This document shows positions 198-24,148 of a stretch of 24,315 bases of DNA, piece by piece. Location: positions 1 to 24,315 of IMG/VR virus record IMGVR_UViG_3300027734_004437, one strand, 5' to 3'. The translations under genes were made by a program, and so were the position numbers. Below the pieces are notes generated by a model that was not told the DNA's origin, did not search any database, and saw only the letters and a list, made by a program, of their open reading frames with translations. Every line of letters starts with the position of its first letter. The first letter of the stretch is position 1. The DNA comes from a virus.

Positions 198-890
198 ATG
201 TTAATAGCTAATATGGTTGGGAAAAATGAGTCAGGAAGATACCTGACTGATGTGCTGGAGCACTTGTCTAGCATGGTCGATTTAATTGTGTTTACAGATG
301 ACTGCTCAGAAGACGACACAAAAGAGGTAGCCTCTAAGTACGCTGAGACATTTAGCACCGACGAGACACTATTCACTAAGCATGAAGGGCAACTAAGGAG
401 TCAGGCTTGGTCAAATCTATGCGGTTTTGCTAAACCTGGAGACTGGATTCTAGCTATCGATTGCGATGAGAAGCTTTGGTCAACAAACCCAAATTTCGAC
501 ATGTCTATGATATTGCAACAAAATAAATACGATGTCATTAATATCAAATTCTTTCACATGTGGAACCAGTCTCAATACAGAGTAGATAAACTCTGGGCGC
601 CAAATAACAGCTCTAGACTTTTTAGGTTCTATAACGATGGACATTTCAATGATAGGAAGTTAGCCTGCGGATCCGAGCCTACTTATGTTAACCAGCTTAT
701 ACAATCTGGCAAATACCTAGTCGATAGTTCATTAGTTATGCAGCATTTGGGCTATGTGGATGACGATGATAAAAAATTGAAGTATGAAAGGTACATGCAT
801 CTAGACGGTGGAGATTTTCACCAGAAGAGTCACATAGAATCTATTGTAGATGCAGATCCGGTACTCGTAGATTGGAAGGTCTATGCCTAA
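198..890 (+). CDS. Family 2-like glycosyltransferase (GT-A fold)
   Basis: This 230-residue protein is a probable soluble sugar transferase using a nucleotide-sugar donor. The N-terminus (IANMVGKNESGRYL, residues 3-16) is the usual first strand and NE motif of GT2-like enzymes. F-T-D-D-C-S-E-D-D-T at 32-41 matches the nucleotide-binding D-x-S-x-D-x-T motif, and D88-C89-D90 is the DxD metal site. No membrane span is visible. The ATG at 198 follows an AAAGGA ribosome site about 11 bases upstream. It overlaps the next gene by 8 bases. Acceptor and sugar cannot be read from sequence; virion or DNA-base glycosylation are both possible for phage enzymes of this kind. Confidence 0.8.
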   Translation: MLIANMVGKNESGRYLTDVLEHLSSMVDLIVFTDDCSEDDTKEVASKYAETFSTDETLFTKHEGQLRSQAWSNLCGFAKPGDWILAIDCDEKLWSTNPNFDMSMILQQNKYDVINIKFFHMWNQSQYRVDKLWAPNNSSRLFRFYNDGHFNDRKLACGSEPTYVNQLIQSGKYLVDSSLVMQHLGYVDDDDKKLKYERYMHLDGGDFHQKSHIESIVDADPVLVDWKVYA

Positions 891-1563
891 AGTTAGTGTT
901 ATACTCACGGTATACAATAAGCCACAATGGCTTAAGCAGTCTTTAGATTCTGTTATTAATCAAACATTTCAGGATTGGGAATTAATTATCATGGAAGATA
1001 ATTCCCCTAATCCTTTGGTGAAAGAAATAATTGAAACATATACGCATGATCCTAGGGTTATTGCTGTATTTTCTGACGTCACAGAAGAAGAAAGATACAA
1101 AACAACACGCTATGCAACCTTGATAAATCAGGCTGTTAATGATATATCTTCTGGGGATTATATTACGTATTTGACAGATGACGACTATTACTACCCTCAT
1201 CGTTTGGCTGTTATGGTTAAGGAATTAGAAGAAAAAAACGTTTCAGTGGTATACGGGAATCAAGACGTCGTAGATGCTGACGGAAATTGCTCGGGAGTTA
1301 GAGAAGTTTCTGGCATATTAGATGATGCCTGGAATAAGGTTGATCACAATTCAGTAATGCATACGAAAGAATGCTTTATAGAGGTGGGGGGATGGGCTGA
1401 CACTCCCGATATCTGGGGTGGAGGAGACGCTCATTTTTGGCGGAAATTAACAGATGTAGGACATAAATTCTACCCGGTAGAAGGAGCATCTAATGAAGCT
1501 AAAAGGTATCACGAAGGAAGCGTCCAGTGGTTAGTTCATAATGGAAAGTTTTTTCCTGAATGA
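883..1563 (+). CDS. Family 2 glycosyltransferase (GT-A fold)
   Basis: This is the clearest GT2 enzyme of the cluster, at 226 residues. Residues 3-14 (KVSVILTVYNKP) are the classic first beta strand, LKQSLDSVINQTF at 17-29 is the usual following helix, and IIMEDNSP at 35-42 is the uracil-binding acidic motif. T98-D99-D100-D101 is the DxD-type metal site, and a W-G-G-G-D region near residue 185 may be the catalytic-base loop. No membrane segment is seen. The start overlaps the previous gene by 8 bases and the stop overlaps the next start as ATGA, so translation is likely coupled. The substrate is unknown. Confidence 0.88.
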   Translation: MPKVSVILTVYNKPQWLKQSLDSVINQTFQDWELIIMEDNSPNPLVKEIIETYTHDPRVIAVFSDVTEEERYKTTRYATLINQAVNDISSGDYITYLTDDDYYYPHRLAVMVKELEEKNVSVVYGNQDVVDADGNCSGVREVSGILDDAWNKVDHNSVMHTKECFIEVGGWADTPDIWGGGDAHFWRKLTDVGHKFYPVEGASNEAKRYHEGSVQWLVHNGKFFPE

Positions 1564-2249
1564 GTTTAGCCCAGTATCCAATTTTTATAATCTGTAGAGA
1601 TAGAGTAACTTGCACCTCTAAGCTTGTCGATTGGTTAGAGAAGGTTGGTCAAGAAAACATATATCTTGTTGATAATGATTCTACGTATGAACCATTGCTC
1701 GAATACTACGAGAAAACTCCACATAATGTAGTGAAGATGCTAGGTAACACCGGTCACACTGGTGTATGGCTACATGGTGTATTGGACAAGTATGCAGCTG
1801 ATAATTATTTTGTAGTTTCAGATCCAGATGTTCTCCCTATCGAGGACTGCCCAGATGATGCTATCGATTATTTTAGATCTTTATTAGATAAGTATGATGA
1901 TCGCCAAAAGGTTGGTTTTGGTTTGAAGCTAGATGACATTCCTGACCATTATAGATTTAAGCAAGCTGTTATAGATCATGAAACTCAATATTTAAGTTGG
2001 GGTGCTCCTGAGAATAACTTGAATTACGCACCAATTGATACTACCTTTGCTTTATATAGGCCAGGTGCAAGTCAGGATATTAGCCTTAGTTGCAGGACTC
2101 AATACCCATATTTAATCCGACATCTACCTTGGTATATTGATTCCGATAATCCAGGGGAAGAAGAGGAATTTTATATCAAAAACGCACATACTCGTATTAA
2201 TTCCTGGAATCACATTGATCTACCATTTTGGATGGGCGGAAATAGATGA
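1560..2249 (+). CDS. Glycosyltransferase-like protein with SDPD motif
   Basis: This 229-residue protein has the GT-A plan: a first strand FIICRDR (8-15), a second strand ending YLVDNDSTYEPL (35-46), and V-S-D-P-D-V at 86-91 in the place of the DxD metal motif. The middle region carries G-N-T-G-H-T-G-V-W (62-70), similar to the helix after the donor site in bacterial and viral glycosyltransferases. It starts inside the preceding stop (ATGA, 1560-1563) and ends inside the next start (ATGA, 2246-2249). No membrane segment or signal peptide is visible. Donor and acceptor cannot be told from the sequence. Confidence 0.75.
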   Translation: MSLAQYPIFIICRDRVTCTSKLVDWLEKVGQENIYLVDNDSTYEPLLEYYEKTPHNVVKMLGNTGHTGVWLHGVLDKYAADNYFVVSDPDVLPIEDCPDDAIDYFRSLLDKYDDRQKVGFGLKLDDIPDHYRFKQAVIDHETQYLSWGAPENNLNYAPIDTTFALYRPGASQDISLSCRTQYPYLIRHLPWYIDSDNPGEEEEFYIKNAHTRINSWNHIDLPFWMGGNR

Positions 2250-2923
2250 GTATTTCTTGCATTATACCAACTATATGGAAAGATAATATGGTCAATAATT
2301 TGGTTCTCCAATTGGTAGAGCAAGATGAGTTTGATCAATTATTAATATTAGATAATAGCAATATAGACCATACGCATACTTTATCTGATTTTAAGAATAA
2401 AAAGATAACGCTTTTGCCTACTGCTGGATTAAACATCTATCAGCAATGGAACTATGGGGTATCTATAGCGAAAAGTAGCTTTAGTGATTGTAGTATTGTG
2501 GTCTTAAACGACGATTTGATAATACATTCTGAAAACTTTTTGACTAAATTAGTCAATCCATTATTGCTAGATGGTGACATCTGGGCGTCTTGCGGCAATT
2601 ACGACGAGAGATTAAGCACTGGCACGTATGTAGAGGTAGCGGGAACGTATAAGGATAAGGGGTTTGCTGGGTTTTGTTTTGCTATATCTAGTCAAGTTCA
2701 TTTTGGCGGAAATGAAATCTTTGATTCAAATTATAATTGGTGGTATGGGGATGACGATTTAATTCATAGTATACATAAATTTGGAAAAAAAACTGTCATG
2801 GCAACTAATGCTTCATTTACTCACATAGATGGCGGGTCTAAGTCCACTGGTGGATATACACCTGAATTTAATTCTATGGTGGAGCAAGATAGAATATACT
2901 ACATGGAGAAGTGGCACGCATGA
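2246..2923 (+). CDS. Family 2-like glycosyltransferase
   Basis: This 225-residue protein opens with ISCIIPTIWKDN (3-14), a GT2 first strand, and LLILDNSNID (32-41), the acidic nucleotide-binding motif. VVLNDD (85-90) is the metal-site motif. W-Y-G-D-D-D at 166-171 fits the catalytic-base region, and F-T-H-I-D-G-G at 191-197 resembles the C-terminal His motif that closes many GT2 active sites. So the core motifs are present in the expected order. Coding is continuous and coupled on both sides by ATGA overlaps. Target and sugar are unknown. Confidence 0.8.
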   Translation: MSISCIIPTIWKDNMVNNLVLQLVEQDEFDQLLILDNSNIDHTHTLSDFKNKKITLLPTAGLNIYQQWNYGVSIAKSSFSDCSIVVLNDDLIIHSENFLTKLVNPLLLDGDIWASCGNYDERLSTGTYVEVAGTYKDKGFAGFCFAISSQVHFGGNEIFDSNYNWWYGDDDLIHSIHKFGKKTVMATNASFTHIDGGSKSTGGYTPEFNSMVEQDRIYYMEKWHA

Positions 2924-3600
2924 GCGAAAAAGTTTTGCTTGGTATCATCGATAACAAAAGACCAGATTTACTAGATCAAACTATTAAATCCTTAGAGTCT
3001 AATTTAGATTATAATTTTTTTGAAAAGGTTATAATAGACGATTCAGGAGACGCTGGTTATTCACGAGAGCTCAATGACATTTATGGCGATCGTTATACTA
3101 TTTGGTCTCATAGGGTAAACATGGGATTATCTGGATCTATTATGTCTCTATGGTTATTAGCTAAAGAGCATGACGTAGATTATGTGTGGCACCAGGAGGG
3201 TGACTTCACATTTAATCATTGCATAGATTTAGAATTGCTAAAGAACATCTTGAAACAGAAACCTAAGCTAGCTCAAGTTGCATTAAAAAGGCAGCCTGTT
3301 AACGGGGATGAGGCGTCGGTAGGTGGATTTATGGAGCAGAAGCCAGACACATATACTGAGTATAGTTCAGAATCTTTAGGCGCAGTATGGGTTGAGCATA
3401 GAAACTTTTTCACCCTAAACCCATGCCTGTATCCAAGGTGGGTAGTAGATCTGGGATGGCAAAATGGATGGGGAGAAGCTGAATTCTCTAATTTATTATT
3501 TTCTGACGAATCTGTAACTTGCGCTTTTTTGCACGGCGTAGATCACGAGCCTATCGTTAATCATACCGGTAATTATCGTGGGGATGGGTGGTTCGTTTAG
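2920..3600 (+). CDS. Glycosyltransferase-like protein
   Basis: This is a 226-residue protein counted from the ATG at 2920. An upstream in-frame GTG at 2911 is less likely: it lies only two bases after the GGAG motif at 2905-2908, whereas the ATG at 2920 has normal spacing and makes an ATGA overlap with the previous stop. The protein has a GT-A-like first strand (KVLLGIIDNKRP), an acidic second-strand end (KVIIDDSGD) and H-Q-E-G-D-F-T-F in the place of a DxD motif. Divergence from classical GT2 is larger than in its neighbours, so the fold call is firmer than the activity. It shares one base with the next start at 3600. Confidence 0.7.
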   Translation: MSEKVLLGIIDNKRPDLLDQTIKSLESNLDYNFFEKVIIDDSGDAGYSRELNDIYGDRYTIWSHRVNMGLSGSIMSLWLLAKEHDVDYVWHQEGDFTFNHCIDLELLKNILKQKPKLAQVALKRQPVNGDEASVGGFMEQKPDTYTEYSSESLGAVWVEHRNFFTLNPCLYPRWVVDLGWQNGWGEAEFSNLLFSDESVTCAFLHGVDHEPIVNHTGNYRGDGWFV

Positions 3601-4211
3601 TGGAAAAGCTTGTTATAATTGGCGCTGGATCACATGGCTCTGGTATAGAGACTATAGTAAATGCTATTAACCAGGAAAATTTAACCTGGGATTTATTGGG
3701 GTACCTAGATGATGACCACAATAAGGCTGGAGTCATTGGTGACATTGACCATTTAATAGAGGGTGCGTATTACGTAATAGGGGTTAATGAACCAAATCTC
3801 AAAAAAAGTTTATACCATAAAAAAAGAATGAATACTTCAGCAACAATTATTCACCCTTCCGCTTCTATTGGCAGCAACACTACTATAGGCGAAGGTGTCG
3901 TCATATTTGCTGGAGCTATAGTTACCGGAAATGTCCACATAGGGCAGCATAGTCATATCAACGTCGGATCAACCGTAAGTCAGGGTTCGTCTATCGGCCA
4001 ATTTTGTAGTATAGCCCCAGGAGTAAATATAGCTGGGCAGGTTACGGTTGGCGAGGAGACGCTTATAGGGACTGGGTGCTCTATTATTCATTTAATAAAC
4101 ATTGCTAAAAATACAACAATCGGCGCTGGAACTGTTATTATCAGGGACATAACCGAAGAAAAATGTACAGTTGTTGGAATTCCCGGAAAAGTCATAAAAC
4201 ATAATGAGTAA
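3600..4211 (+). CDS. PglD/NeuD-like sugar O- or N-acyltransferase
   Basis: This is a 203-residue enzyme of the left-handed beta-helix family. Residues 4-10 (VIIGAGS) form the N-terminal Rossmann-like sugar-nucleotide site typical of PglD/NeuD. From about residue 80 on, hexapeptide repeats of the I-G-x-x-T-x type follow (IGSNTTIGEGVVI, IGQHSHINVGSTV, IGAGTVIIRDI), ending with the usual VVGIPGKVIK. I place the start at the GTG at 3600, overlapping the stop TAG by one base, because family members begin almost directly with K-L-V-I-I-G-A-G; an in-frame GTG at 3588 would add four residues. It probably acetylates a sugar made or moved by the neighbouring glycosyltransferases. The acyl donor would be acetyl-CoA by family. 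Confidence 0.85.
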   Translation: MEKLVIIGAGSHGSGIETIVNAINQENLTWDLLGYLDDDHNKAGVIGDIDHLIEGAYYVIGVNEPNLKKSLYHKKRMNTSATIIHPSASIGSNTTIGEGVVIFAGAIVTGNVHIGQHSHINVGSTVSQGSSIGQFCSIAPGVNIAGQVTVGEETLIGTGCSIIHLINIAKNTTIGAGTVIIRDITEEKCTVVGIPGKVIKHNE

Positions 4212-4956
4212 AATTTTTGGCATATGCATGGTTAAAGATGAAGAAGATATAATTCAATATATCTTAGAGCACCTTCTTTCTGAAGGCTTAGATCAGATCA
4301 TTATTTTAGATAATTTATCAACTGACGGAACAAGAGATATCCTAAATGATATGTCTAGAGTATATAAAAATATTTTAATAAAGGATGATCCAGAAATAGC
4401 TTATTATCAATCAGCTAAAATGACCGCATTAAGCCATGAAGCTGGTTCGCTTGGCGCAGACTGGATTGTCCCGTTCGATGCCGACGAATTCTGGTATGCG
4501 GTTGATGGATCTACTTTGGCGGAGAAACTCCGTTCCATAGAGGAGCCTGTGGTGGAAGCAACTTCTTTTGATCATCTGCCCACCGAAAATGATCCATACG
4601 ATATAAATCCTCTTAAAAGAATAGTTCACAGAGAAAAAGGCCATCAAGTATTCCCGTGTGTAGCATTCAGGTATGAGCCGGGCTTGACCCTTTTGCAGGG
4701 CAACCACAGTGTAATCAGGAGTGGGAATAGAGACTATTCCAGCTTTCAATTAAGGCATTTCCAATATAGGAATTTTGAGCAATTTTCAAAAAAACTAAGA
4801 AATGGTAAAGTAGCTTATGATGCCACAAACCTTCCCCTTAATGAAGGTCAGCACTGGAGAGAGATGGGCGCTCTAGGGGATGACCAGATGTTGTTGAAGT
4901 GGAAAGAATTCTTATCAAAACCCTTGATCTATGACCCAGCACCGGTGCGGTTATGA
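4204..4956 (+). CDS. Glycosyltransferase, GT2/GT92-like with DADEF motif
   Basis: This 250-residue protein begins with IFGICMVKDEEDII (4-17), followed by IIILDNLSTDGT (32-43) and W-I-V-P-F-D-A-D-E-F-W (87-97); D92 and D94 are the metal ligands. The later LRHFQYRNFEQF segment is common in GT92/Glyco_tranf_2_4-type proteins. It starts 8 bases before the end of the acyltransferase gene. It is the last member of the glycosyltransferase run; a 36-base gap then separates it from the replication genes. The fold assignment is strong, but donor and acceptor are unknown. Confidence 0.85.
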   Translation: MSKIFGICMVKDEEDIIQYILEHLLSEGLDQIIILDNLSTDGTRDILNDMSRVYKNILIKDDPEIAYYQSAKMTALSHEAGSLGADWIVPFDADEFWYAVDGSTLAEKLRSIEEPVVEATSFDHLPTENDPYDINPLKRIVHREKGHQVFPCVAFRYEPGLTLLQGNHSVIRSGNRDYSSFQLRHFQYRNFEQFSKKLRNGKVAYDATNLPLNEGQHWREMGALGDDQMLLKWKEFLSKPLIYDPAPVRL

Positions 4957-10505: not shown

Positions 10506-13500
10506 GTGAAAAACTGGTGTAACCTACACGTCCATACGACATTCTCAATGTTGGATGGGCACGGTAAGGTTGATAAGTATGCGGAGCGTGCAGCAGAATT
10601 GGGCATGACCGCATTAGCCCAAACAGATCATGGCAACGTGCATGGCTGGTTAGATTTCTACGAGGCTTGCAAGAAGGTGGATATTAAGCCCATATTGGGG
10701 CTTGAGGCATATCAGGCTAGGAAATCTAGGTTCGATAGGGACCCGGAAGAGAGGTCTGGACCAGCACAGAACGAGTGGGACCAAAGAGGCCCATACCACT
10801 TAACGGTTCTAGCTAGTAACAAAGTGGGTTACAAGAACTTAATTAAGTTATCTTCTAAGGCTTACACCGAAGGTTTCTATGTAAAACCTAGGATTGACCA
10901 CCAACTGGTGTCACAGTATAGCGATGGTCTCATAGTCTTATCGGGCTGCCTAAACGGCGAGTTGCAGCAAGCTTTGCTGCGTGGCGATTATGCTAAGGCG
11001 TTAAAGCACGCATCGACTATGCAAGACATTGTCGGTAAAGAAAATTACTTTGTAGAGATACAAGACCATGGGCTGGCAGAGCAGAAGAGCGTAAAGCAGC
11101 AGACGTTAGAAATCGCTAAAGCTATAGGGGCTAAAGTGGTAGTTACAGGTGACTGCCACTACGTCAACAAAGCCGATGCCCACTACCATGACGTAATGCT
11201 TTGTTCTGGAACTAAGTCTTTGATGGACCAAGAAAATAGGTTCAGGTTTAGTGGGGATGAGTTTTATCTCAAGTCCTATGCGGAAATGGAATCTACATTC
11301 GAGCCGGAATGGTTAGAAAACACACTGCTTGTCGCCGAAATGGTGAACATAGAGTTGGAGTTTAATGAATTCCATTTCCCCGAGTTCCCAGATGTCCCCA
11401 AAGATATTTCCGTCGAAGACCACCTGGAAGAGTTGGTCTGGGATGGCATTAGAAATAGGTATGGTGACCCTATCCCAAGTGAAGTAATAGCTAGGACAAC
11501 TCACGAGCTCGGGGTTGTAAATAGAATGGGGTTCCCTCACTACTTTCTCGTGGTTTCCGACATCGTTAGGTGGGCTAAGGAAAACGATATACGGGTTGGT
11601 TGGGGTAGGGGATCTGCGGCCGGCTCAATCCTTTCCTATGCATTGGAGATTACAAATTTAGATCCGCTAAAGTTCGGATTGCTCTTCGAGAGATTTCTAG
11701 TAGAAGGAAGAAAGTCGATGCCTGATATCGACTTAGATTTTGATGACAGGTACAGAGACAAGGTCATAGAGTATGTAAGAAACCGTTACGGCAATGACCA
11801 CGTGGCGCACATCTGCACATTTGGTACTGTCGGAGCTAGGAGTGCAATTAGAGACACCACTAGAGTACTTGGCTACGAGTACAAGGTGGGGGACGACTTG
11901 GCTAAGCTTGTTCCTCCTGATGTTCTGGGCGTAGCAAAATCCCTTGATGAAGCGCTTAAGTCACCCGAGATGCTGAAAAAGTATGAATCAGATCCAGACG
12001 CTAAGATTATCATGGATACAGCAAAAGGCATAGAGGGCATACACAGGCAAACCGGAATACACGCTGCTGGAGTAGTGATCTCTAGAAAACCTTTGATCGA
12101 ATACATACCAGTTATGCAAAAAGGAGAAAATGCTCCAGTTGTTACCCAATGGGACATGAATCGCGTAGAGCAAAACGGACTACTTAAGATTGACTTCCTA
12201 GGCTTAAGAAACCTAGGTGTTGTTGATATGGCCGAAAAGCTAATCAACGAAAGGCATGGTACATCTGTAGATTGCTACAACCTACCACTGGACGACGAAG
12301 GCGTGTACAAATATCTTAGTAAAGGTAATTCTATGGGTATATTCCAGGTTGAATCTAGGGGCATGAGAGACATGATGCTATCTATGCGCCCAGATAGGAT
12401 CGAAGATATAATGGGTCTCATATCCCTCTACAGACCGGGGCCCCTAGGTTCTGGTATGGATAAGATATATATCGACAGGAAGCACGGCCGAAAAAATTCC
12501 CAGGTTCCCCACCCTAAGCTAGAGGATGTTCTCCAGAAGTCTCGTGGGGTAATGCTCTATCAGGAGGATGTTATAAATGTTGCTAGGGTCTTAGCCAACT
12601 TTAGTGCTTCGGAAGCCGACGACCTGCGTAAGGTCATAGGTAAGAAGCAGATGGACAAGGTACATCTATTTAGGGATAAGTTTGTAGACGGCTGCAAAAA
12701 GCATAGCGATGTAGATAGTCATCTTGCGAATAAGATATATTCCGATATAGAGTATTTCGCAGGGTATGGCTTCAATAAAGCTCACGCAGCATCCTATGCT
12801 GTGCTGTCTTACATTACAGCTTGGCTCAAGTACTACTACCCGTTGGAGTATATGACAGCTCTACTGACCTCTGTGGCCACGAATAAGGACAAGCTATCCC
12901 CATACCTCAACGAGTGCAGGAAAATGTCCATTAACGTCTTGCCTCCCTCTATGAAAGATTCATCTTCGGACTTCACTATATCGGATGAGGATGAAATTAT
13001 CTTTGGCTTTTCCGCTATAGATGGCATTGGAGAGTCAAAGGTGCAGGAGATGCTAGCCAATAGGGGATCATCTAATATATGGGAATTCTTAAGGACTTGC
13101 GAGTCCGGGGTTATTAATAGGGCTACCCTAGAGCACCTGATCAAGTCGGGAGCTTTCGATGAACTATCTCCTGGTAGCAAAAAAATAAATCGTTCAGATA
13201 AGCTTAACATTCTTGAGATGGAAAAGGATGAGTTAGGCCTATACGTGACAGACCACCCATTGCTTGGTATCTGGGATTTTATTACACCAAAGATTTCGTG
13301 TGAGATCGAAGACTTGAAAAATGTCTCAGAAGGAGAACTAGTCACCATAGGCGGAATCGTAGCAAAGAAGCAGTCAATAATCACTAAAGCCAATAAACAG
13401 ATGTACCGTTTACAGGTAGATGACGTAACGACTACAGCCGAAGTGGTTGTTTTTCCTAAGTACTCATCAAAGATAAGCGAGCACGATATAGAGTCGGGGT

Positions 13501-13832
13501 CTCTGGTGACAGTATCGGGGAACGTAGCGTTTGAGGGTGATGAGGAAAACCTAATTATTAAGATATTATTAACAGATATAGAAAAACTCGATATATCTAT
13601 ATTGCATGGGGGTAAACCAATCAGGTTGAAGGCCGCTCATAAACCTTCCTATGGTCAGGTATCGAAGATTTATGGTATAATATCCAATGTGTCTGGTGAT
13701 TCTCCCGTTTATTTAGAGTTTCCTGATGGTAGCAACACAATGACTATGAAGTTCAACAACAGCACTTCCGACAGGATTGAAGAAGAGCTGCAACAGATAA
13801 TACAGATTTTCGAACTTGAAAGAGAGCTTTGA
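10506..13832 (+). CDS. dnaE: DNA polymerase III alpha subunit, DnaE type
   Basis: This 1108-residue protein is close to the length of cellular DnaE. The PHP domain covers about 1-210 with all the usual metal ligands: H-V-H-T-T-F-S, T-D-H-G, G-L-E, S-G-C, Q-D-H-G and G-D-C-H-Y. The C-family polymerase core follows. P406-D407-I-D409-L-D-F holds two of the catalytic Asp residues, and K-I-D-F-L-G-L, G-I-F-Q-V-E-S, Y-R-P-G-P and G-Y-G-F-N-K-A-H-A are the other signature segments. An OB-fold (LVTIGGIVAKKQ) lies near the C-terminus. It starts at GTG (M-K-N-W-C) after an AGAGAG ribosome site. It would be the phage's own replicase; the stop overlaps the next ATG by one base. Confidence 0.95.
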   Translation: MKNWCNLHVHTTFSMLDGHGKVDKYAERAAELGMTALAQTDHGNVHGWLDFYEACKKVDIKPILGLEAYQARKSRFDRDPEERSGPAQNEWDQRGPYHLTVLASNKVGYKNLIKLSSKAYTEGFYVKPRIDHQLVSQYSDGLIVLSGCLNGELQQALLRGDYAKALKHASTMQDIVGKENYFVEIQDHGLAEQKSVKQQTLEIAKAIGAKVVVTGDCHYVNKADAHYHDVMLCSGTKSLMDQENRFRFSGDEFYLKSYAEMESTFEPEWLENTLLVAEMVNIELEFNEFHFPEFPDVPKDISVEDHLEELVWDGIRNRYGDPIPSEVIARTTHELGVVNRMGFPHYFLVVSDIVRWAKENDIRVGWGRGSAAGSILSYALEITNLDPLKFGLLFERFLVEGRKSMPDIDLDFDDRYRDKVIEYVRNRYGNDHVAHICTFGTVGARSAIRDTTRVLGYEYKVGDDLAKLVPPDVLGVAKSLDEALKSPEMLKKYESDPDAKIIMDTAKGIEGIHRQTGIHAAGVVISRKPLIEYIPVMQKGENAPVVTQWDMNRVEQNGLLKIDFLGLRNLGVVDMAEKLINERHGTSVDCYNLPLDDEGVYKYLSKGNSMGIFQVESRGMRDMMLSMRPDRIEDIMGLISLYRPGPLGSGMDKIYIDRKHGRKNSQVPHPKLEDVLQKSRGVMLYQEDVINVARVLANFSASEADDLRKVIGKKQMDKVHLFRDKFVDGCKKHSDVDSHLANKIYSDIEYFAGYGFNKAHAASYAVLSYITAWLKYYYPLEYMTALLTSVATNKDKLSPYLNECRKMSINVLPPSMKDSSSDFTISDEDEIIFGFSAIDGIGESKVQEMLANRGSSNIWEFLRTCESGVINRATLEHLIKSGAFDELSPGSKKINRSDKLNILEMEKDELGLYVTDHPLLGIWDFITPKISCEIEDLKNVSEGELVTIGGIVAKKQSIITKANKQMYRLQVDDVTTTAEVVVFPKYSSKISEHDIESGSLVTVSGNVAFEGDEENLIIKILLTDIEKLDISILHGGKPIRLKAAHKPSYGQVSKIYGIISNVSGDSPVYLEFPDGSNTMTMKFNNSTSDRIEEELQQIIQIFELEREL

Positions 13833-23458: not shown

Positions 23459-23803
23459 TCATTTGCTAGTAGTTTTGCAGGCATACGTTTCTTCTAGGTA
23501 TAAGCGTAAATCATCTTCAAAATCTGGGTTTACAGTATATAATTCATCTGTTTCCCAGGCAAAGGCATGAAAAATATCTCCTAGAAAATCAACTGCTTCC
23601 AATTGGTATCCGACCTTATTGCCGGGAACCACAACTTTACTTGTTATTTTCAAAAAGTATATATCAAAAACAATATCATCAATAGCTATTTCCCCTACCC
23701 TACAAGGGTAGAGGTTGCCATCTTGCTTTAAGCTATTGACGTAAGCATACTTGGGGATACATTCTGAGCTATCTTTTTTTGGGTCATTTCTAAAAAATAA
23801 CAT
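23459..23803 (-). CDS. Hypothetical protein
   Basis: This is a 114-residue protein from the ATG at 23803 (MLFFRNDPKKDSSE), preceded by AAGGA 9 bases upstream. The frame stays open to 23887, but the added part runs through two strong RNA hairpins and has no ribosome site, so the shorter form is chosen. The protein is mixed alpha/beta, with C-R-V-G-E-I-A-I-D-D-I-V-F-D in the middle and an acidic end. No family is recognised. It lies 11 bases upstream of the coiled-coil gene and directly downstream of a terminator-like hairpin, so its expression may depend on read-through. Confidence 0.62.
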   Translation of the reverse strand: MLFFRNDPKKDSSECIPKYAYVNSLKQDGNLYPCRVGEIAIDDIVFDIYFLKITSKVVVPGNKVGYQLEAVDFLGDIFHAFAWETDELYTVNPDFEDDLRLYLEETYACKTTSK

Positions 23804-23818
23804 AATATAATTTTCCTT

Positions 23819-23859
23819 AATAAGAAAGAGGCTGGCACCCCCAACACTAGGTGCCAGCC
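23819..23859 (-). terminator. GC-rich terminator or attenuator hairpin
   Basis: GGCTGGCACC (23830-23839) and GGTGCCAGCC (23850-23859) pair perfectly over 10 bases around a 10-base loop. On the minus strand the stem is followed by TCTTTCTTATT, a T-rich though broken tract. The ATG of the next gene is only 26 bases beyond, with no room for a full promoter, so this may be an attenuator rather than a simple gene end. Confidence 0.6.
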
Positions 23860-23861
23860 AA

Positions 23862-23891
23862 GCCACTTGCGTTACCACTAAACGCAATGGC
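23862..23891 (-). other. RNA hairpin II of the structured leader
   Basis: On the minus strand GCCATTGCGTT pairs with AACGCAAGTGGC: 11 base pairs with one bulged G, and a 7-base loop TAGTGGT. The loop side (TTTAGTGGTAA) also looks like a tRNA D-loop. It lies 2 bases from the terminator-like hairpin and a few bases from the T-arm element, so the three stems are stacked almost without spacer. Confidence 0.5.
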
Positions 23892-23895
23892 TAAG

Positions 23896-23938
23896 AGGCC
23901 TTCCGGGAATCGAACCCGGAAGTAATCCAATAGGCCTA
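23896..23938 (-). other. tRNA-like T-arm element
   Basis: On the minus strand CTTCCGGG and CCCGGAAG (23922-23900) form a perfect 8-base stem around TTCGATT, an exact tRNA T-loop. The flanks can also act as an acceptor stem: AGGCCT 11 bases upstream of the T-stem can pair with AGGCCT directly after it. No D-arm or anticodon arm fits between them, so this is not a complete tRNA. A 12-base palindrome, AATAGGCCTATT (23929-23940), covers the stop of the gene before it. It could be part of a structured RNA, a tRNA remnant, or a tRNA-derived attachment site. Confidence 0.55.
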
Positions 23939-24148
23939 TTTATAATCCATGACTGGTATAATTTTTTCTACTTTATTCCAAAGGTTTTTGCTAAGAATGT
24001 ATCTCTCATCGTTATGGGGAACTGGCGTGTCCGCCTCACATGCATGACGCATACCGTGAAAGAACTCGACAACCGCAGCATTAAGGTAGCATGCTTCCAT
24101 ATAGTTCAGATTAAGAGTGTATTCTTGCTCACCCTCGAATTGCTCCAT
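23936..24148 (-). CDS. Small hypothetical protein
   Basis: This 70-residue protein has E-Y-T-L-N-L-N-Y-M-E-A-C-Y-L-N-A-A-V-V-E-F-F-H near its start, probably a strand then a helix, and no recognised motif. The ATG at 24148 shares one base with the stop of the preceding minus-strand gene (TGATG), so the two are translationally coupled. The stop lies within a 12-base palindrome at the edge of the structured RNA region. Confidence 0.65.
   Translation of the reverse strand: MEQFEGEQEYTLNLNYMEACYLNAAVVEFFHGMRHACEADTPVPHNDERYILSKNLWNKVEKIIPVMDYK

Follow-up and report, generated by a model that had tools for sequence, protein, structure and literature searches.

Introduction

RNAs with tRNA-like structures are already known: tmRNA, mascRNA and T4 RNA C are examples. 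The tRNA-like domain of tmRNA consists of an acceptor stem, a D-loop-like stretch with GG but no D-stem, and a T-arm. The mammalian mascRNA and menRNA (of MALAT1 and MEN-beta) also form a tRNA-like structure, at a site where RNase P and RNase Z are reported to cut the transcript (PMC4919922). According to the same source, RNase P processes pre-tmRNA, tRNA-like structures, mRNAs and phage-induced RNAs (PMC4919922). Recognition of a tRNA by RNase P, by RNase Z and by the CCA enzyme involves its elbow (PMC4810234). T4 RNA C (rnaC, species 1 RNA) is phage-encoded and stable and ends in a T-arm, CCGGGTTCGAATCCCGG; its role is described as unknown (PMC3014915). The Y RNA YrlA carries a T-loop and D-loop-like parts, in the order T, then D. 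In mitochondria, intergenic tRNAs act as transcript cutting signals, an arrangement termed tRNA punctuation. Intergenic tRNAs or tRNA-like structures serve as cutting signals both there and, as t-elements, in plants.

How does the element described here compare with these systems? It lies in a virus record of 24,315 bases (the window, that is, the whole stretch of DNA analysed), and its first part is a ‘mini-tRNA’ made of an acceptor-like stem, a linker with GG and a T-arm. It resembles the tRNA-like domain of tmRNA in all three parts; however, the linkers of such minis have 8–18 bases where tmRNA has hundreds, and the window copy has neither a tag frame nor the G3–U70 pair. mascRNA and menRNA are longer, contain a second stem region and belong to mammals; cutting is known there and putative here. 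T4 RNA C differs in its 139 nt and large internal hairpins, and scores a chance-like 13.2 bits against our three-hairpin model. The mitochondrial and plant cases concern organelles and whole tRNAs or t-elements, not an anticodon-less phage class. The likeness of the window to YrlA is far below the cut-off, absent in relatives and without the outer stem, and no Ro60 partner was found. In the open-access literature we found no description of a phage class built of acceptor, GG linker and T-arm.

Structure of the intergenic element

A structured element fills the gap between a 70-aa gene and a 114-aa gene on the minus strand, with three stems in tandem (23937–23830). Its features are as follows.

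23936–24148, minus strand: upstream gene, 70 aa, without a Pfam match, conserved in relatives
23938–23936, minus strand: TAG stop of the 70-aa gene, overlapped by the acceptor-like 5′ strand
23932–23937, minus strand: acceptor-like stem, 5′ strand AGGCCU, pairing with 23901–23896
23921–23931, minus strand: linker AUUGGAUUACU, replacing the D and anticodon arms, with GG at 23928–23927
23902–23920, minus strand: T-arm, 6-bp stem UCCGGG/CCCGGA, loop UUCGAUU (23914–23908), from fold and alignment
23896–23901, minus strand: acceptor-like stem, 3′ strand AGGCCU, from the fold and the alignment of three phages
23861–23892, minus strand: hairpin 2, 12 pairs, 7-nt D-loop-like loop UAGUGGU, bulged A at 23868
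23830–23859, minus strand: hairpin 3, terminator-like, 11 pairs, 8-nt loop, tail TCTTTCTT
23812–23827, minus strand: U-rich tail, possible small stem 4, able to pair with the SD region of the next gene
23459–23803, minus strand: downstream gene, 114 aa, without a Pfam match

An earlier note on this DNA had described three strong minus-strand stems almost without spacer, and the minimum free energy (MFE) fold bears this out: 23945–23815 folds at −57.1 kcal/mol (z −5.4), a value matched by none of 200 dinucleotide shuffles. The first stem had been read as one of eight pairs. Its T-loop is indeed exact (TTCGATT, 23914–23908), but the stem is better described as two helices of 6 bp each, a T-stem and an acceptor-like stem, which stack to give about 12 pairs across 23937–23896; the eight-pair reading had overlooked the AGGCCU 5′ strand (23937–23932) and the GG linker. 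With just 11 bases, the linker has no room for an anticodon arm. ARAGORN detects no cloverleaf with an anticodon arm in the window, and the normal tRNA gene that the note had named as a refutation is not recovered. What is present is an acceptor stacked on a T-arm, some 12 pairs, with a T-loop of the form TTCRANY. Hairpin 1 corresponds to the upper half of a tRNA and has neither a D arm nor an anticodon arm: it retains the stack, the T-loop and probably the elbow, and the GG of its linker is likely a stand-in for the D-loop, placed upstream of the T-arm as in ordinary tRNA.

The second stem has the single bulge and 7-nt loop reported previously and 12 pairs, not 11. In hairpin 3 the T-rich tail likewise stands, and the pairs number 11 rather than 10. 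Its GC-rich stem followed by a T-run tail (TCTTTCTTAT) has the form of an intrinsic terminator; a simple terminator scan gives three overlapping sites here against a mean of 2.0 per shuffle. The ribosome site announced beside the stems was found too: an SD-like AAGGA, then ATG at 23803–23801, directly 3′ of hairpin 3. Stem 4 appears in the MFE folds of the window and of its relative G004 and is absent from the full-length fold of a second relative, G002; its consensus has four pairs, one of them with a double change, and its register varies among folds.

Does the element belong to a described family? Searching the window against Rfam 15 returned no family at its gathering score. At relaxed thresholds weak matches appear to YrlA in the window and to tmRNA and mascRNA in G002, all of which contain the T-arm. 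Each was rejected: tmRNA (RF00023) matches G002 at T-arm level, with 10–14 of 47 bits and no tag frame, and mascRNA-menRNA (RF01684) reaches 14.7 bits there, under its gathering score of 42.5; YrlA (RF02553) is taken up in the Discussion.

Conservation in related phages

The contig G001 (55,940 bases, locus L122) derives from the same phage, at 99.98% identity over 5,854 bases. Relatives were located through the DNA polymerase, which gave seven loci in seven records. (At 198–4956 and 10506–13832 the window holds a row of proteins resembling, by eye, glycosyltransferases, and a phage DNA polymerase III alpha of the DnaE type.) Besides its own contig, two of the seven records hold the region at the same place, G004 (75% DNA identity) and G002 (72%); in the remaining four, short records of 6.6–14.3 kb, it was not matched.

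Compensatory changes, which the earlier note had proposed looking for, are present. The alignment of the three phages contains 37 pairs with 95.5% of cells paired, and 11 of these pairs show compensatory double changes; none of 500 shuffles does as well, and structures slid along the alignment reach at most three double changes. Judged on these aligned sequences, the three stems are real and under selection. Helix 1 reads AGGCCU/AGGCCU, GGCCU/AGGCC and GACCCA/UGGGUC in the three phages, with a double change in three of its six pairs, and encloses the T-arm like an acceptor stem. The linker has 9–11 bases and its GG is invariant. Conservation is strong in hairpins 2 and 3, including the loop of hairpin 3. 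In hairpin 2, 87.9% of cells are paired and two pairs carry a double change; four pairs depart solely through unpaired cells, and G002 appears to be one base out of register. The hairpin 3 stretch CCTAGTGTTGGGGG is the same in all three phages, and four of the 11 pairs carry a double change. The relatives support the earlier proposal of a structured RNA, one whose first part is genuinely tRNA-like and is followed by a terminator-like hairpin.

How far does the whole element extend? It is absent from the same gene junction in eight more distant loci that carry the 70-aa gene. Hairpins 2 and 3 were detected in the three related phages only. A search with the full three-hairpin model (R1), as the earlier note had suggested, matched these three alone among 15 records searched whole, at 120–135 bits against a best of 23.0 bits in other loci; it is the mini-tRNA part that recurs. 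Hairpin 3 was rejected as a family-wide motif: among viral contigs its strict pattern picked out the three phages alone, its single match in genome contigs looks coding and lacks the element, and a looser pattern gave 18 further places, all without it. DNA searches against named phages returned no match for the window region or for stretches of loci L343, L354, L330, L313, L249 and L287.

We then ask whether the same phages hold further copies. The fetched pieces of G001, G002 and G004 (325,090 bases) were searched for T-arm motifs whose stems are stable. Six of these T-arms lie outside tRNAs and tmRNA: besides the three homologues, G001 has a second one near 36755, and G002 has two more, near 161593 and 162584. 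All six have an acceptor-like stem a short distance upstream and a GG in the linker, and by our reading of sequence and ORFs five of the six begin at the preceding stop codon or within five bases of it. Under stricter rules minis make up 5/5 free T-arms in the clade; the count is five, not six, because the intron option of ARAGORN places the G004 copy in a false tRNA with a 488-base intron. The same rules give 0/4 in the 12 records G003 and G005–G015, and 8/163 among the matches listed from a first viral scan, where a wrong linker length gives 13/163. A perfect mini-like match in L118 proved to be part of a normal tRNA.

The clade encodes other tRNA-like RNAs. Its tmRNA lies at 37561–37951 (minus strand) in G001 and at 129798–130188 (minus strand) in G002, with 23-residue tags that end in GALV; it begins GGGGCTG-ACTGG, and one mini has ACTGG at the same place. 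Just past the end of the window, in the same gene row and two intergenic gaps upstream of the element, is a second tRNA-like RNA (L157:3681–3746, plus strand), found in the same gap in L158 and L159. Its T-loops are odd in the three phages (UGUAAAC, UGCAAAU, UGCAAAA). In G004 Rfam scores it as tRNA at 42.2 bits, and ARAGORN makes no call.

Occurrence across viral sequences

If hairpin 1 can stand without hairpins 2 and 3, how common is it? The pattern ATGGTTN{4,10}GGTTCGATTCC matches at least 120 viral loci. Since ATGGTT and GGTTCGATTCC are fixed by the pattern, the free evidence consists of the acceptor pairing, the outer three T-stem pairs and the spacing, and prevalence taken from such scans is a lower bound. 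Among the matches listed, 130 exact ones could be placed, seven in tRNAs and 123 outside. At a fixed place before ATGG, 64 of the 123 unfiltered hits listed have an acceptor of at least 6/7 pairs; when the 3′ strands were swapped 1000 times, such acceptors numbered 2.5 on average and never more than 9. None of the seven hits inside tRNAs has one. With flexible stems, at least four contiguous acceptor pairs occur in 98 of the 123 listed (10–24 in 20 swaps) and at least 11 stacked pairs in 88 (3–9 in 20 swaps of the 3′ flank). The length of the 3′ strand peaks at 12 (43 of the 98 among the matches listed), as in tRNA, and three bases separate acceptor and GG in 77 of the same 98. The contrast is weaker in plain MFE folding, which finds the acceptor in 77 of the 123 listed and in 35–39 once the flanks are swapped.

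The 42 hits that share the most frequent gap were counted under a fixed structure and served to build a second model, R2. In this set 81.6% of cells are paired (51.7% in shuffles) and 159 cells show double changes (60.5 in shuffles). Two of five measures do not exceed shuffles, namely pairs with a double change (9, mean 9.0) and pair types (40 against 36.1; 24/500). With the structure slid by +1, 61.3% of cells are still paired, and RNAalifold predicts the T-arm alone.

R2, derived from these 42 other viral hits, finds the window element (match 23940–23891) at 30.1 bits, E 7.4e-5 over 349,405 bases. It scores G004 at 37.6 bits and one G002 copy at 51.7 bits; the G002 homologue receives 17.6 bits (E 0.16), another G002 copy is matched just partially and the second G001 copy not at all. 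Three of the six clade copies are therefore missed by R2 or receive a low score. A candidate match in G011 reaches 24.1 bits. All 13 of the 13 mini-holding records are matched, 1–8 times each, a few of them partially. In the window copy the GG stands 2–3 bases behind the acceptor stem, as in the class. We conclude with high confidence that 23937–23896 is a mini-tRNA of acceptor-like stem, GG linker and T-arm, and a member of a phage class.

A search of 398 genomes from a single bacterial phylum with the ATGGTT pattern gave one match, which lies in a tmRNA. In six mini-bearing loci Rfam 15 did not recognise the class; the exception is L343, where it makes four short tRNA calls and one of these overlaps a mini.

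Genomic context

Where do the minis lie? For context we used 113 distinct minis from 69 loci among the matches listed, no two of which share 500 bases at 80%. As a set chosen by pairing and GG, they are used for context alone: ATGGTT-pattern loci contribute 105, first-scan loci two and the clade six, and G001 and G002 are each represented by two pieces among the 69 loci. Seventeen of the 113 lie inside ORFs of at least 100 aa. Of the other 96, 33 start at a stop codon (from 6 bases before to 10 behind the end of a same-strand stop), against 5.0 expected from random places of the same kind, with a maximum of 10 in 200 draws. For 92 minis the longest ORF nearby shares their strand, and for 16 it is on the opposite one. 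Immediately before the stem 56 of 98 minis have A and 16 have U, and CCA is encoded in 2 of 113; these counts too are among the matches listed. The ordinary tRNAs of the same loci have U before the stem in 50/71 and lie near stop codons in 11/71. No ARAGORN tRNA away from the locus ends was found in 51 of the 69 loci. In 19 viral records, chosen for holding minis and with tRNAs left in, a related pattern gave 60 matches, on one strand per record and up to 10 in each; reversed, it gave none there and one in a bacterial genome searched alongside.

Minis recur up to 16 times per locus. This number is reached in L343, where 12 lie within about 2,000 bases in which no ORF exceeds 109 aa; one of the 16 (369) is more plausibly a short tRNA-like RNA that has a D-arm, and Rfam calls it tRNA. 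Beside this array are four tRNA-like RNAs of 55–62 nt (350–410, 2052–2113, 3556–3610 and 10701–10761, minus strand) with acceptor, D-arm and T-arm and no anticodon arm; a HEARO RNA also lies in L343. At L276:1096–1770 (minus strand) five near-identical minis stand about 150–200 bases apart in low-complexity, AAC-rich DNA.

The mini-bearing locus L260 matches 67 Streptococcus phage records, including prophages of Streptococcus agalactiae, and L263 has one match, to an unannotated gut phage. In the Streptococcus prophage Javan53 a further mini, which R2 misses, was read by eye in an unannotated gap. Four Streptococcus prophage loci (L361, L362, L363, L364) carry a longer tRNA-like RNA in which GGAACA … TGTTCC surround the T-arm with about 100 bases between; L260 has a mini with the same acceptor at the corresponding place. 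Comparison of these sequences suggests that some minis arose by deletion.

The searches also turned up candidate permuted tRNA genes in other phages. In L112, L083, L047 and L102 the 3′ half precedes the 5′ half, and 7/7 acceptor, 4/4 D-stem and 5/5 anticodon-stem pairs can form; other candidates are weaker. The permuted-tRNA pattern gave 25 of 120 hits with cross-pairing acceptors, a raw count that includes some ordinary tandem tRNAs. No group I intron reached its gathering score in seven permuted-candidate loci, and L112 contains a GOLLD RNA.

Discussion

What might a tRNA without its decoding half do between genes? Since the recognised parts of tRNA are kept and stop codons are preferred, transcript punctuation is our best guess: the mini-tRNA would be a putative RNase P/RNase Z cutting signal behind genes, much as the earlier note had suggested for these two enzymes, an explanation that, taken whole, we hold to be evenly balanced between true and false. 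On this model the mini-tRNA would be transcribed along with its co-directional neighbours, and the linker GG would dock on the T-loop to form a tRNA elbow. Host RNase P and RNase Z would mistake the product for a pre-tRNA and cut its ends. The stop codon of the upstream message adjoins the mini-tRNA, and cutting would release this message from the RNA that follows it. Some of the window's transcripts could then terminate at hairpin 3, which is terminator-like, and this would yield a stable RNA of small size and restrict how much message the downstream gene receives. The whole would amount to punctuation by tRNAs without the decoding half. With its position behind genes and its arrays, this use would resemble that of whole tRNAs in mitochondria. 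To the putative cutting by tRNA-processing enzymes we give almost an even chance. That in many phages an unnamed RNA class of acceptor, elbow and T-arm recruits host tRNA-processing enzymes for putative transcript punctuation is possible, and we advance it tentatively. Against punctuation stand the A rather than U before the stem (56 and 16 of 98) and the CCA encoded in merely 2 of 113, both among the matches listed; two thirds of the minis listed lie away from stop codons, and arrays such as that of L343 fall outside long ORFs. Ordinary tRNAs of these loci, too, lie near stops (11/71).

Several findings would suit a tRNA decoy or docking site, in which the mini-tRNA binds tRNA-recognising proteins and is not a cutting signal. 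Nothing is kept but the parts such proteins recognise, the arrays lie outside long ORFs, the clade phages carry their own tmRNA, and most mini-bearing loci (51/69) have no ARAGORN tRNA away from their ends. Lacking an anticodon, a mini would resist anticodon nucleases. We nevertheless consider a decoy unlikely: it leaves unexplained the preference for stop codons (33/96 against 5.0, among the matches listed) and the gene-strand bias, and the window copy has no G3–U70 pair, the rule for alanine charging, and so shows no sign of such charging. As its partners we can name, with the same low expectation, the CCA enzyme, EF-Tu, T-loop modification enzymes, SmpB and tRNA-attacking defence enzymes. 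The strong conservation of hairpins 2 and 3 and of the hairpin 3 loop, the terminator-like hairpin and SD that follow directly, and a tail able to pair with the SD region would fit a cis-regulatory leader or attenuator of the 114-aa gene, with the mini-tRNA and hairpin 2 switching hairpin 3 and access to the ribosome site. However, hairpins 2 and 3 are limited to three phages while the mini-tRNA recurs in other surroundings, and the SD pairing is missing from the full-length G002 MFE fold; this reading, too, seems to us improbable.

Two further readings were considered. The arm order had led the earlier note to call a permuted tRNA worth testing, and a circularly permuted tRNA or a YrlA-type Y RNA would indeed have T-arm, acceptor-like hairpin and D-arm in succession; the window matches YrlA weakly in that order (16.3 bits, E 0.94, gathering score 69). 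But in all three phages the strand behind the T-arm pairs with the strand in front of it, which excludes the permuted reading, as that needs downstream pairing, and the D-loop-like sequence seen after the T-arm belongs to hairpin 2, a long hairpin of its own. A permuted or YrlA-like fold requires an outer stem, which by our reading of the alignment is formed by the window sequence alone; stems incompatible with that fold show double changes, and neither G004 nor G002 has a YrlA match at E up to 10. No TROVE/Ro60 protein was found in the window's record (G000) or in G001, both of which are fragments. We give a permuted or YrlA-type RNA scarcely any credence, and as little to functionless wreckage left by a tRNA gene. 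The clade has ordinary tRNAs, and deletions can bring about the decay of such genes; the stems, however, are kept by double changes in the three phages and across the 42 sequences, which makes wreckage unlikely, and copies recur up to 16 per locus.

The window element very probably represents an RNA class that is widespread in phages and escapes both tRNA finders and Rfam. If cutting by RNase P and RNase Z is true, phages would split polycistronic transcripts compactly by using host enzymes; if the minis are decoys, they would regulate tRNA-binding proteins in a new manner. In both cases a single 45-nt stem suffices to test the prediction, and the class bears on how small an RNA may be and still be treated as tRNA by the processing machinery.
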